This document shows, one piece after another, positions 24,276 through 28,459 of a stretch of 64,000 nucleotides of DNA (position 1 is the first letter of the stretch; every line of letters starts with the position of its first letter). Location of the stretch: positions 1 through 64,000 of the forward strand of contig JAKLFY010000020.1 of NCBI GenBank assembly GCA_022710935.1, read 5' to 3'. The DNA is from Verrucomicrobiota bacterium (GTDB taxonomy: Bacteria > Verrucomicrobiota > Verrucomicrobiia > Limisphaerales > J093). The position numbers were made by a program, and so were the translations under genes. Under the pieces are notes generated by a model, which saw only the letters and a program-made list of their open reading frames with translations, made no database searches and had not been told where the DNA came from.

Positions 24276-24429
24276 GCGAGGCTTCGCCTCAGACCTGCGA
24301 GGCTTGTGAACGACTCGTGGCCGCTGGGTGGCAACCACGATCACCGGCGCCCGACGCCTCGCTAAGTGGCCCCGCTGCACGGCTCAAAAACTTGACTCAT
24401 TCAGTACGAATTCTGAAAAGGAAGTCACT
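24276..24429. repeat. 154-bp dispersed repeat, copy A
   Basis: From GCGAGGCTTCGCCTCAGACC to GAAAAGGAAGTCACT the sequence matches 41311-41464 at about 88 percent by eye with no gaps. It contains GAGGCTTCGCCTC, a small palindrome, near its left end. It occupies the gap between purN and the Zur-type regulator gene and carries no gene. Confidence 0.85.
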
Positions 24430-24557
24430 TCAGTCCGGATTTCCCACCACTTGAAGGAGTCATCTGAGATCCGGTTGTGAGACTCCGCGCAGCTTTGCGA
24501 CACATCCGGGCTAAAGCCTTGGATCGCTGCCTCCGCTCTGCTAGTGTCGGGCGTTCG

Positions 24558-25061
24558 ATGAAAACACAACGACACGGCTGCTCCGTTCACCAAACGCTTC
24601 CTTCGCAATGGAAAGAGCGGATCCGAGGACAGGCGGGTCGCGTGACCCGGTCGCGTCAAGTCATCCTGGATGCTCTGGTGCGGCTGCGGTGCCCCTCGAC
24701 ACCCAAAGAAATCGCCGAGGCCGTCGGCACCCGCGCGTGCGACCTGGCCACCGTCTACCGTTGCATGACACTCTTCGAGGAGATGGGCCTGGTCCACCGC
24801 ATCGACTTCGGAGACGGCCTGGCGCGATTCGAAATCGCCGATGATGACCCCACGGGCCATCAGCACCACCACCTGCTCTGCCGCCAATGCAATCGCATCG
24901 TCAAGCTCGACGGCTGCGTGCTCGGCGAAGTCGAATCCGCCCTGGCCCGCCGCTATGGCTTCGTCGAGATCAAACACCGCCTCGAATTCTTCGGGGTCTG
25001 TCCGGATTGTCAGCACGCGGGCAGGGGGGCGGCTTCGCAGGCCCGGAAGCGAGCGTCCTGA
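24558..25061 (+). CDS. Fur-family regulator, probable zinc-responsive Zur
   Basis: The start ATG 24558 gives a 167-residue protein of usual Fur length. The winged helix is at about 25-90 (TRSRQVILDALVRLRCPSTP, then ATVYRCMTLFEEMGLVHRI). The dimerisation domain has the metal cluster GHQHHHLLCRQCNRIV (about 104-119) and a second CPDC near residue 153, so the structural Zn(Cys)4 site is complete. A Zur role is inferred from the neighbours: a small His/Asp/Cys membrane protein, a ZIP transporter and a choice_anchor_M-like protein on the same strand. Fur or PerR functions cannot be excluded from sequence alone. Confidence 0.85.
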   Translation: MKTQRHGCSVHQTLPSQWKERIRGQAGRVTRSRQVILDALVRLRCPSTPKEIAEAVGTRACDLATVYRCMTLFEEMGLVHRIDFGDGLARFEIADDDPTGHQHHHLLCRQCNRIVKLDGCVLGEVESALARRYGFVEIKHRLEFFGVCPDCQHAGRGAASQARKRAS

Positions 25062-25101
25062 ACCGCCGGAACCGCCGAGAGAATTCGCCGAGAGAATTCG
25101 C

Positions 25102-25145
25102 TTGCGCCCGGCCCGGTTTGGTGGGATTAATGCAATCGTTTTGCA
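25102..25145 (+). promoter_or_regulatory. Candidate promoter with 7-1-7 Fur/Zur-type operator
   Basis: TGCAATC-G-TTTTGCA at 25131-25145 is an inverted repeat with the 7-1-7 geometry used by Fur-family repressors (TGCAA/TTGCA arms perfect). It overlaps a plausible promoter: TTGCGC at 25102-25107 and ATTAAT at 25126-25131, 18 bases apart. It lies between the Fur-family gene and the small membrane protein gene. Sites of this type are normally bound by the linked regulator; this is inference. Confidence 0.5.
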
Positions 25146-25149
25146 ACAA

Positions 25150-25536
25150 GTGCGAACAGATTTTGGCGGCGCAACCGCCCGGCGCTCGGGGCGGAAACCG
25201 CGGAGGCCGCGGACGCCCGCCCTCGGCTCCCTCGGGTCGCCGCGGGCGCAGAGATGGACCGCCGTTGCCGCGCTTGCGGCTTTCCTCTTCGTCACGCTCC
25301 TGACCTGCTGGCCCGCGCTGCACGCGGTTTACCACGGCGATGATGCGGGCTCGGAGAGCTACCCGTGCGTCGTGACCCTGCTGGCGAAAGGCCAGGTCCT
25401 GGCCGGCGATTTTTCCCCCGTGGTGCTTCCTCCCCCCGCGGTGTCCTTCGGGGAACCGGTCGCACCGCCTGCGGTTTGTTGCGCGGGTGACGTCCGGCTG
25501 TCGCCCACCCGCGCCCCGCCCGCCTGCTCCGCATAA
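25150..25536 (+). CDS. Small membrane/periplasmic protein with His-Asp-Cys motif
   Basis: The predicted 128-residue protein starts at GTG 25150 (TTG 25141 is an alternative; there is no ATG in frame). It has an Arg-rich N-terminus, a single TM segment ([19 protein letters not shown], about 40-58) and then [27 protein letters not shown], whose His, Asp and Cys could bind metal. The C-terminus is Pro-rich with a CC pair. From memory, short proteins with an L-H-x3-H-x-D-A...C-x-V-T core accompany Fur/ZIP/choice_anchor_M loci in Verrucomicrobia; this needs a search. A competing frame from ATG 25130 lacks coding character. Confidence 0.5.
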
Positions 25537-25697
25537 GTCCGATACGGCCTCGACGTGCTCTCCTGCCGGCGGTGTGCCCTGAAGGGGGCGCTGTCCTGAT
25601 GTGCTCCGAGGATCTCCCCGATCGAAGTTCCTGGTGGGGCTCGCCTGTTGCCCTGCGCCGCGTGTCGGCGGCGCGCAAAAACAGGCGCTGGAAATCC

Positions 25698-26381
<684 letters not shown>

Positions 26382-26438
26382 ACGGGAAACACGAGCCGGC
26401 GGACCATGATTTCGCTGACCCATCACCTTAAGGATACC

Positions 26439-27422
26439 ATGCATGATTCTTCCCTCCTGATGCTCGGGCTTTACGCCGGCATCGCGTTCCTCGTCTCGCT
26501 GGCGGGCGGCAGCCTGCCGTCGTTGGTCCGTCTCACGCACACTCGCCTGCAAACCGCCCTCGGCTTCATCGCGGGCCTTATGCTCGGCATGGCGTTGCTT
26601 CACCTCATCCCGCACGCCGCCGAGGGGACGCATTCGGTTGAACGCGCCGGGGCCTGGGCGCTGGGCGGCTTTCTGGTGATGTTCTTTCTTCAGCGTGTCT
26701 TCCACCATCATCAGCATGGAGTGCCCGGCGATCCTGCATCCGGTCCGACGCCTGCGGACTGCTGCGGCCAGGCCCACTCGGCCAACACGACATCCGACAT
26801 CCCGCGCGTCCCGGCGCGGCGGGTTTCATGGATCGCCGTCGCGCTGGGCATGACATTCCACTCGATCATCGACGGACTCGCGTTGGCGGCAGCGGTTATG
26901 GCCGAGTCGCACGCCTTGGTGGGACTGGTGGGATTGGGAACCGCTCTGGCCGTCGTTCTGCACAAGCCCTTCGACGCCCTGTCGGTTTTGACCCTCATGA
27001 AGGCGGGCGGCTGCGGGTCCAGGTCACGCTGGGTCATGAACGTGGGGATCGCCCTGGTGACGCCGCTGGGGGCGGCCCTGGGTTTCATGGGCCTCGGGTC
27101 GGTGGCGGAGGCCAACCAGGAAGTCCTGGGCTGCGCCCTGGGCTTCTGCGCCGGCGGCTTCCTGTGCATCGCTTCGAGCGATCTGCTGCCCGAACTGCAC
27201 TTCCATTCGCATGATCGCCTGCGTCTTTCCCTGGCGCTGCTGGCGGGCGTGGCCGTGACGGTGCTTGCCGGCGCTTTCCATGGGCACGATCACGATCACG
27301 GCCATGACCAAGGGCCTGCCCACAGTCAGGGCCACAGTCACGACCACGGGGATGGCCACAGTCACGACCACGGCGAAGACCATCAGCACTCGCATTCAGA
27401 CACCCACTCGACCACACCATGA
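26439..27422 (+). CDS. ZIP-family metal transporter with His-rich tail
   Basis: ATG 26439 is preceded by AAGGA. The 327-residue inner-membrane protein has about eight TM segments. The core has GMALLHLIPHA in TM2 and GMTFHSIIDGLALAAA followed by LVGLGTALAVVLHKPFDAL in TM4-5; these His, Asp and Glu-type positions form the binuclear metal site of ZIP proteins, which import zinc or other divalent metals. A cytoplasmic/periplasmic loop near 95-110 has HHHQHG, and the last 40 residues are a His/Asp/Gly-rich tail (HGHDHDHGHDQG), a probable metal sensor or buffer. The ATG of the next gene overlaps its stop. Confidence 0.9.
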   Translation: MHDSSLLMLGLYAGIAFLVSLAGGSLPSLVRLTHTRLQTALGFIAGLMLGMALLHLIPHAAEGTHSVERAGAWALGGFLVMFFLQRVFHHHQHGVPGDPASGPTPADCCGQAHSANTTSDIPRVPARRVSWIAVALGMTFHSIIDGLALAAAVMAESHALVGLVGLGTALAVVLHKPFDALSVLTLMKAGGCGSRSRWVMNVGIALVTPLGAALGFMGLGSVAEANQEVLGCALGFCAGGFLCIASSDLLPELHFHSHDRLRLSLALLAGVAVTVLAGAFHGHDHDHGHDQGPAHSQGHSHDHGDGHSHDHGEDHQHSHSDTHSTTP

Positions 27423-28459
27423 AAACGCATCGCCTCTCCGTTTCGTTGTTCCTGGCTCTGGCCCTGGCCGGGGCGCCCCGCCTGCGGGCCCAATGTCACG
27501 TCTTTACCCACGAACACGTGGATCTGCTGTCCGTTCGATGGAATGCAGGCGGCGCCGCGCTGAGTTTGATGGCATCCGACGATCACCACGGCGCGCTCTA
27601 CGCCAGCAACCAGTGCGTCGTGGTCTGTCCCGAGTCGATGAGATTTACCCTGCCGGCCGGCACGCCGCTGGGCAACGAGGGCGAGCCGCTCTGGATCCTG
27701 CCCCAGAATCCCTATGCCGGCGCGCCCCACCTGGGCGTTTCCGCGGAAGGCGTCCCCCCCGGCACCTTCAATGATCCGCTCAGCATCGAGCTCAAGCGTC
27801 TCGAGGGCCCGGGCCATCTTCTCGTCTGGCAGGCCAGCGGCACTGGCGACATCGCCATCAGGATGGACACGCGCGACGGCATCGGCGCCACCGACACGCT
27901 GACGCCGTTTGTGGGCGGGCATGAGCATTACAACTGGGGGTTCACGACCAGCGGCGTGTACCGCGCCTATTTCCAGGCCAGTGCACGCCGCCTCGACCAG
28001 AGCACGAACATCGTCTCGCCCGAGACGCCCTTCACGTTCCACGTCCTGCCGCTGAAACCCTTCGAGCACTGGACGGCGACCAACTGGCCGTGCGAATGCG
28101 ATCTGGCCATTATCGCGCCCGGCGCGGACCCTGACACCGACTCCGGTGTCAACGCGGTCGAATACGTCCTTGGCACCGATCCTCGGGTCGCGACCTTGAG
28201 TGCCTGGCCCACGGGGGGCCTCGTGACTGCCGACGGCCTGACGTACGGCGCGCTGACCTACACGCGCGACAAGGCGGCGACAGATGTCTCGTATGACGTG
28301 GTGGCTGCATCGAGCCTGACCTGGGCCGATTGGCAGACGCTCACCACCGTGCACGAGAGGGTGGACCTTGGCTCGACCGAGCGTGTCACCGTGCGGGACA
28401 GCGTGCCCATCGGCAGCGGATTTCAGCGGTTCTACAGGCTCTGTGTGCGGTTGAACTAG
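27419..28459 (+). CDS. choice_anchor_M-like exported protein
   Basis: The 346-residue protein is translationally coupled to the ZIP gene (ATGA overlap). It has a signal peptide (LSVSLFLALALAGAPRLRA) and a domain starting HVFTHEHVDLLSVRWNAG. The choice_anchor_M / actinobacterial surface-anchored pattern is recognisable: PLWILPQ, then LKRLEGPGHLLVWQ, then GGHEHYNWGFTTSGVYRAYF (about 155-185). In Actinobacteria these domains accompany metal ABC transporters and bind or present metal at the surface. The C-terminal DPDTDSGVNAVEYVLGTDP resembles the calcium-loop module common in verrucomicrobial exported proteins. A role in zinc capture with the ZIP transporter is inferred. Confidence 0.75.
   Translation: MKTHRLSVSLFLALALAGAPRLRAQCHVFTHEHVDLLSVRWNAGGAALSLMASDDHHGALYASNQCVVVCPESMRFTLPAGTPLGNEGEPLWILPQNPYAGAPHLGVSAEGVPPGTFNDPLSIELKRLEGPGHLLVWQASGTGDIAIRMDTRDGIGATDTLTPFVGGHEHYNWGFTTSGVYRAYFQASARRLDQSTNIVSPETPFTFHVLPLKPFEHWTATNWPCECDLAIIAPGADPDTDSGVNAVEYVLGTDPRVATLSAWPTGGLVTADGLTYGALTYTRDKAATDVSYDVVAASSLTWADWQTLTTVHERVDLGSTERVTVRDSVPIGSGFQRFYRLCVRLN

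Follow-up and report, generated by a model that had tools for sequence, protein, structure and literature searches.

The palindrome TGCAATCGTTTTGCA, which lies between a Fur-family regulator gene and a small operon in the 64 kb stretch of DNA analysed here (the window), is very probably, as judged by comparative genomics, the Zur operator of the downstream orfA-prepilin-ZIP-choice_anchor_M operon, with the upstream Fur-family protein acting as the Zur of this lineage. A preliminary description of the same DNA had proposed the site as a candidate Zur box, and the proposal is supported by exact copies of its strict form, TGCAA-N5-TTGCA, at 50 of 80 zur loci and upstream of 55 of 85 prepilin orthologues, with controls of 0. 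What this assignment adds is a new class of operator in a large uncultured group, together with the operon marked by the box. A bacterial order that is large and mostly uncultured thereby gains an operator for its zinc regulon, which makes its zinc-starvation genes predictable from sequence, and the box also points to a zinc-regulated pseudopilin family. The features of the region are collected in Table 1.

Table 1. Features of the regulator-operon region, in coordinates of the window
Feature	Position	Strand	Remarks
Gene of a Fur-family regulator (167 aa), taken as Zur from its context	24558..25061	+	Pfam FUR, orthologue neighbourhoods
-35-like element TTGCGC	25102..25107	+	18 bp ahead of the -10-like element
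-10-like element ATTAAT	25126..25131	+	one-base overlap with the box
Zur-type operator (predicted) TGCAATCGTTTTGCA, strict form TGCAA-N5-TTGCA	25131..25145	.	position kept in relatives
orfA, small one-helix Cys/His protein ending RAPP	25150..25536	+	start GTG 25150 or TTG 25141
Prepilin-like protein, conserved DHTHSR..W and ADIQPDRH motifs	25698..26381	+	ORF open from 25572; start 25698 probable
ZIP-family metal transporter	26439..27422	+	ORF open from 26406; Pfam Zip 8.5e-31
Choice-of-anchor M protein	27419..28459	+	NF038134 102 bits, cut-off 55

Sequence and symmetry of the box

The letters TGCAATCGTTTTGCA are confirmed at 25131-25145 on the + strand of the window sequence. The 15-mer starts 69 bases past the stop codon of the Fur-family gene at 24558-25061 and is followed by the next gene, which agrees with its earlier placement between a Zur-type gene and the first gene downstream. 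The site had been read as a 7-1-7 palindrome; its letters and coordinates hold, and its symmetry extends to five of the seven pairs. Specifically, T6/T10 and C7/T9 are mismatched and only the outer five pairs match, so a full 7-1-7 palindrome is rejected for the window copy, and the strict form is the 5-5-5 arrangement TGCAA-N5-TTGCA. Across 105 sites, whose arms are fixed by the search pattern itself, the inner pair 6-10 is matched in 60 against 57.9 predicted from column composition, and the inner pair 7-9 in 45 against 42.2. The inner pairs thus match about as often as composition predicts, which leaves the arms as the conserved part.

The exact form occurs once in the window against 0.02 expected, and 2 of 100 shuffles contained one. 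The whole genome from which the window comes (7.5 Mb, 259 contigs) carries it at five places, against three for a control in which the pattern is read backwards. Moreover, the window copy is weak in its inner bases, with three mismatches to TGCAAATNATTTGCA, and a search of the same genome for TGCAAATNATTTGCA with up to three mismatches returns 55 sites against 28 for the control. Genome-wide pattern counts (5 vs 3; 55 vs 28) were therefore rejected as evidence in this genome: the letters by themselves are no proof, the pattern has no clear genome-wide enrichment, and its significance derives from its conserved position in relatives, at zur loci and before prepilin orthologues. A search for Rfam elements at 24300-26500 found none.

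Three of the four other exact sites in the genome do not lie at zinc genes, as judged by eye from ORF translations. These exact-arm sites, on C23, C183 and C201, were rejected on account of their neighbours, the fourth exact site being on C249, and the two-mismatch sites on C18, C62 and C205 were rejected by eye on the same ground. Likewise rejected was a znu locus of this genome under the box, as the sole ABC-3 permease found lies on C194 and none of the five exact boxes is there. This permease, the only ABC-3 (ZnuB-like) one found in the genome, is encoded at C194:125988-126755, on a contig without an exact box.

The regulator and its orthologues

The regulator matches Pfam FUR at 9.9e-22 (77.8 bits, cut-off 23.1). 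Against the NCBI curated Zur model PRK11639, which we take to represent E. coli-type Zur, it scores 29.5 bits and fails the cut-off of 167, and it stays below the cut-off of all six NCBIfam families listed for it, so that the metal is not named by sequence alone. Its PDB sequence matches are Fur, PerR and zinc-uptake regulator chains, and the PDB matches of its profile include 3eyy, presumably the Streptomyces Nur structure. The protein carries RFE ahead of the His cluster, which is a Fur-like feature. Two further Fur-family matches are present in the same genome. Among 58 related genomes, a Fur-family match of some kind occurs in 53, and by hand count 31 have a match of orthologue grade, with E below 1e-26.

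The box at regulator loci of relatives

The 80 regulator loci compared are the best 80 of 366 relatives and all come from metagenome-assembled genomes, the titles of whose records are mostly Verrucomicrobiota, including Limisphaerales and Pedosphaera. The exact box is present, one each, in 50 of these loci, against 0 for the reversed control over 824,183 bases and 2, 1, 1, 4 and 0 boxes in five first-order Markov simulations of the same 80 loci. The next matched gene after the 50 boxes is znuA in 25 loci, a ZIP transporter in 22, and zur, orfA and a prepilin in one each, the latter two representing the operon type of the window itself; the next gene is here a match to a reference set without models for nickel, superoxide-dismutase or iron genes. 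A lack of enrichment before zinc-related genes had been named beforehand as what would refute the box, and the check, once run, came out in its favour, 48 of the 50 boxes leading to znuA, ZIP or zur. The distance from the box to the start of the matched gene is at most 157 bases in 49 of the 50 loci and 222 in one; at L283 the box sits 36 bases within the ZnuA match. A defined sequence in a conserved place is thereby linked to zinc-uptake genes at orthologous regulator loci. The remaining 30 of the 80 loci are without an exact box, although for several the contig breaks off close to the gene, and two genomes that have none beside zur (G010, G013) each have one before a prepilin elsewhere.

Regulator orthologues in the relatives close znuA-znuC-znuB-zur or ZIP-zur runs. 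Within a set of 30 loci (L035-L064), the znuA-znuC-znuB-zur run is complete in 12 and interrupted by a contig end in three more, and it is preceded by genes for S18, a DksA relative and often FolE2, the neighbour gene families having been verified on single representatives. Since FolE2, DksA and S18 lie upstream of the box, the box alone does not put these genes under control. ZnuA-family proteins can carry manganese; the protein of L048 is under every NCBIfam equivalog cut-off, and its best match is the zinc protein AztC. After the same S18 gene, box-ZIP-zur replaces box-znuACB-zur in L254, L260, L262, L267, L268, L281 and others; one transporter has thus been exchanged for another while the operator in front stayed conserved. 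Such zur loci also occur in MAG records titled Akkermansia muciniphila or Klebsiella pneumoniae (L249, L252, L264), titles that are probably wrong.

The zur gene itself lies 3' of the box in many relatives, whereas in the window it lies 5' of it; where it stands behind the box, zur is probably autoregulated. The box also follows the regulator between genomes: of the relatives that have the regulator, 20 of 31 carry a box with intact arms, compared with 4 of the 27 that lack it (Fisher p 0.00016), in a hand count of one-mismatch hits with intact arms that places the window's genome among the 11 regulator-bearing genomes without such a box. As the genomes are related to each other, the locus and genome counts are not independent. 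Conceivably the box is bound by a different transcription factor that co-occurs with the regulator, given that we infer the pairing of regulator and box and that two more Fur-family matches exist in the genome; the tracking of regulator by box, together with the position of zur behind the box in many relatives, as in an autoregulated operon, makes this very unlikely.

Distribution of the box and sites away from zur

Allowing one mismatch to TGCAAATNATTTGCA, 51 sites (summed by hand) are found in 35 of the 58 relatives, against six in four for the control. The exact TGCAAATNATTTGCA is present in 56 of 320 genomes of the order, with one control site, and across the phylum at 17 sites in 12 of 387 genomes, again with one control site. 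The box is thus commonest in this order and not confined to it.

Near-consensus sites away from zur in relatives stand without a reference gene nearby in 10 of 17 cases. Inspection covered the five whose arms are intact; the sites L111, L112, L120, L121, L123 and L124 have broken arms. Two lie inside long ORFs (L110, L113), one precedes a TauE-type permease at a contig end (L114), one is ambiguous (L115), and one stands before a ZnuD-like gene (L116). At the last of these (G019, L116:2156-4637), the box is followed first by a His-rich, DUF2946-like protein that ends in RGPP and scores 23.1 bits (cut-off 23.7), and next by a TonB-dependent receptor. The best NCBIfam match of this receptor is ZnuD at 8.6e-77, below the high cut-off of that model. 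The arrangement is consistent with zinc uptake, and the regulon may thus include a zinc receptor of the outer membrane.

Promoter-like elements and predicted mode of control

The box had been described as overlapping a plausible -10 element. A strict sigma-70 scan does not bear this out, as it reports no promoter at the site on the + strand, with neither the -35-like nor the -10-like element, but a recurrent A+T-rich, -10-like stretch adjoins the box. Among 54 prepilin-type loci, A+T makes up 74% of the six bases directly 5' of the box, compared with 32% at -20 to -15, and a TTG is present at -33 to -25 before the box in 41 loci, compared with 14 in a control stretch. A -35-like TTG about 28 bp 5' of the box and an A+T-rich stretch next to it thus recur across loci. 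In a three-way alignment of the gap that holds the box, taken from the window, L238 and L035, both arms, the upstream GCTTGC and the downstream CGAACA are all invariant.

These features bear on whether the site is a chance palindrome in a GC-rich gap, functionless in its own genome. Its weak inner bases, the five genomic sites against three for the control and the negative strict promoter scan would fit such an accident; its recurrence with conserved arms at the corresponding place in L238 and G004, the presence of the box at 55 of 85 distinct prepilin orthologues and the expectation of 0.02 in the window render it highly improbable.

Taken as a Zur operator, the site suggests a mode of control. 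A protein bound at the box would mask the probable start site and some of the -10 element, a position that makes repression by the zinc-bound regulator, relieved in shortage, the likely mechanism. The zinc-bound Zur dimer would sit on TGCAA-N5-TTGCA, adjoining the -10 element, and block RNA polymerase; zinc shortage would take the dimer off, and the operon would be transcribed. We infer in this scheme that the regulator binds the box, that zinc acts as the co-repressor, that the regulator represses and does not activate, and that the genes are co-transcribed.

Comparison with known operators

The comparison with published systems draws on excerpts of the papers cited. Zur boxes vary among phyla and are commonly drawn as palindromes in promoters, such as 7-1-7 or 9-1-9, and those of Actinobacteria, Bacillales, enterobacteria and cyanobacteria are Fur-family palindromic operators, as the box here very probably is; Zur regulons include znuABC, zinc-free ribosomal paralogues and folE2 (PMC6103462). 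The conserved half-site here is TGCAA, whereas the E. coli Zur motif is TRWNAYRWTATAWYRTNWCA (PMC6103462) and the proteobacterial Zur box is GTTA-N5-TAAC (PMC4176598). The Zur profiles in the excerpt of PMC3087516 are actinobacterial, Bacillus and proteobacterial only. Our literature searches (Zur in Verrucomicrobia; Mur/Nur/TGCAA boxes; choice-of-anchor and DUF2946 proteins; prepilin and Zur) found no report of TGCAA-N5-TTGCA as a Zur box. The actinobacterial Zur box is of the TGAAAATGATTTTCA type.

The TGCAA half-site had been put forward as distinct; it is so against the E. coli TRWNAYRWTATAWYRTNWCA, but it is not new to the Fur superfamily, where the Streptomyces Nur box and a Magnetospirillum Fur operator contain it. 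The Nur box is tTGCaa-N5-ttGCAA, with which the extended site ATGCAA-TCGTT-TTGCAA agrees at 11 of 12 positions; Nur is nickel-responsive and represses sodF (PMC3919588), whereas here the box stands in front of genes for transporters of the zinc type. The Magnetospirillum feoAB1 operator DNA of the Fur co-crystal, three bases of which were altered by its authors, contains TGCAAATCATTTGCA, identical to many boxes found here; that Fur was crystallised with manganese (PMC4506495), whereas the box here stands at zinc-type genes. The DNA class is therefore known, and its use at zinc genes looks new. The findings suggest that Fur regulators of the zinc, nickel and iron/manganese types use a single half-site, TGCAA, in different phyla; this offers a case on which to test how members of the family keep separate regulons.

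The same likeness raises the question of whether the regulator that uses the box is a member of the superfamily responding to nickel (Nur-type) or to iron or manganese (Fur/Mur-type). The agreement with the Nur box at 11 of 12 positions (PMC3919588), the presence of TTGCAAATCATTTGCAA in the Magnetospirillum co-crystal operator (PMC4506495), and a regulator that fails the Zur model and has RFE ahead of its His cluster all lean that way; yet znuA or ZIP is the next matched gene in 47 of 50 loci, near FolE2, the DksA relative and S18, and a ZnuD-like receptor stands behind another box, so that a metal other than zinc is unlikely. Among known systems, the zepA loci of the PVC superphylum, where a Zur-linked zinc exoprotein adjoins a FUR gene, resemble the window in that adjacency and in an upstream palindrome in Luteolibacter yonseiensis, which is likened to a clostridial site (PMC10957091).

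The operon behind the box

Downstream of the box, a small Cys/His membrane protein and then a prepilin come first, and the ZIP and choice_anchor_M genes stand further on. The product of orfA has no NCBIfam or Pfam match at 0.001; three relatives of it are DUF2946-like, below the Pfam cut-off, and among the matches listed orfA-like proteins ending RAPP, RGPP or CGPP lie directly behind the box in many loci. The prepilin-like protein has N_methyl and H-X9-DG matches. Across 85 orthologues, and numbered from the F of FTLIEL, its conserved residues are D155 (84), H156 (85), H158 (84), R160 (84), W162 (85), W166 (85), H178 (81) and H190 (82). The choice-of-anchor M protein carries HVD at 33-35 and HEH at 168-170, forming an HxD/HxH pair, and its gene is followed by that of a LamG/Ig protein.

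The conserved prepilin residues, orfA and the HxD/HxH proteins together lead to the hypothesis of a surface zinc trap. Tentatively, and from the protein sequences, the small Cys/His membrane protein, the pseudopilin (DHTHSR..W / ADIQPDRH) and the HxD/HxH choice-of-anchor-M proteins could form, in Verrucomicrobiota of the Limisphaerales type, a second surface system under Zur control that has not been described before, in which a pilus-like or surface-displayed zinc trap would feed ZIP or ZnuABC importers. A parallel is found in Corynebacterium diphtheriae, in which the znuA and znuF promoters are Zur-repressed and the zinc-regulated ZnuE, ZnuF and ZnuG bear the HxD/HxH motif, so that these secreted or surface znu proteins share it with the choice_anchor_M protein of the window (PMC12445094). 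The excerpt of that work describes a Gram-positive cell-wall localisation, with no prepilin or DUF2946-like protein in the znu cluster (PMC12445094). Our literature search on prepilin and Zur found no zinc-starvation role for pseudopilins.

The box before prepilin operons elsewhere

The prepilin family, searched with the five first prepilins (A1) as query, is present in 98 of 320 genomes of the order, with 124 matches at E 1e-25 or better. The best 89 of the 124 matches (down to 8.5e-67) were examined as 90 loci, L131 being the same as L237, and 85 distinct places have at least 500 bases upstream. Within 1.3 kb upstream, the exact box occurs in 55 of these 85 orthologues, against 0 for the reversed control, and a box with one arm mismatch occurs in seven of the 30 loci without an exact one, the control again being 0. 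Among the matches listed, the distance from box to FTLIEL is 46-117 bases, or 501-720 with orfA-like frames between; the exceptions are 318, 918 and 990, and the loci of the last two contain N runs. The box-positive loci come from 14 families (hand count), so close relatedness alone is unlikely as the cause, though the counts are not independent. Other prepilins in the loci examined served as a further control and have a box in 5 of 20 cases; three of these five carry DHAHSR/DHAHAR motif variants and one is the same operon with an N run, and after removal of same-family or same-operon cases the box remains in 1 of 16. The prepilin family with DHTHSR..W and ADIQPDRH motifs, preceded by the box in most examined loci, is accordingly a candidate zinc-starvation pseudopilin family.

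The closest relative of the window, L238 (JAKLHY010000072.1), has a regulator 79% identical and the same order, namely zur, TGCAATTGCTTTGCA, orfA, prepilin and choice_anchor_M. G004 (L239) has zur, TGCAAATGTTTTGCA, prepilin and choice_anchor_M, without orfA and ZIP. Away from zur, the box precedes the same prepilin with choice_anchor_M genes in three genomes (G032, G007, G039), and in G042 it precedes a homologue of orfA (35% identity), beyond which lie weak matches of ZnuA-like and ZnuB-like type.

The sequence compared around the box is identical in JAKLHY010000072.1 and in G251 (L132), a genome of another family of the order, and the L238 regulator is 79% identical to that of the window against 66-70% for three genomes placed in its own family; transfer or misplacement is possible. 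In G032, G063 and G064 (L127, L137, L143), the prepilin is preceded by two boxes or near-boxes at a spacing of about 30 bp, an arrangement that suggests double operators.
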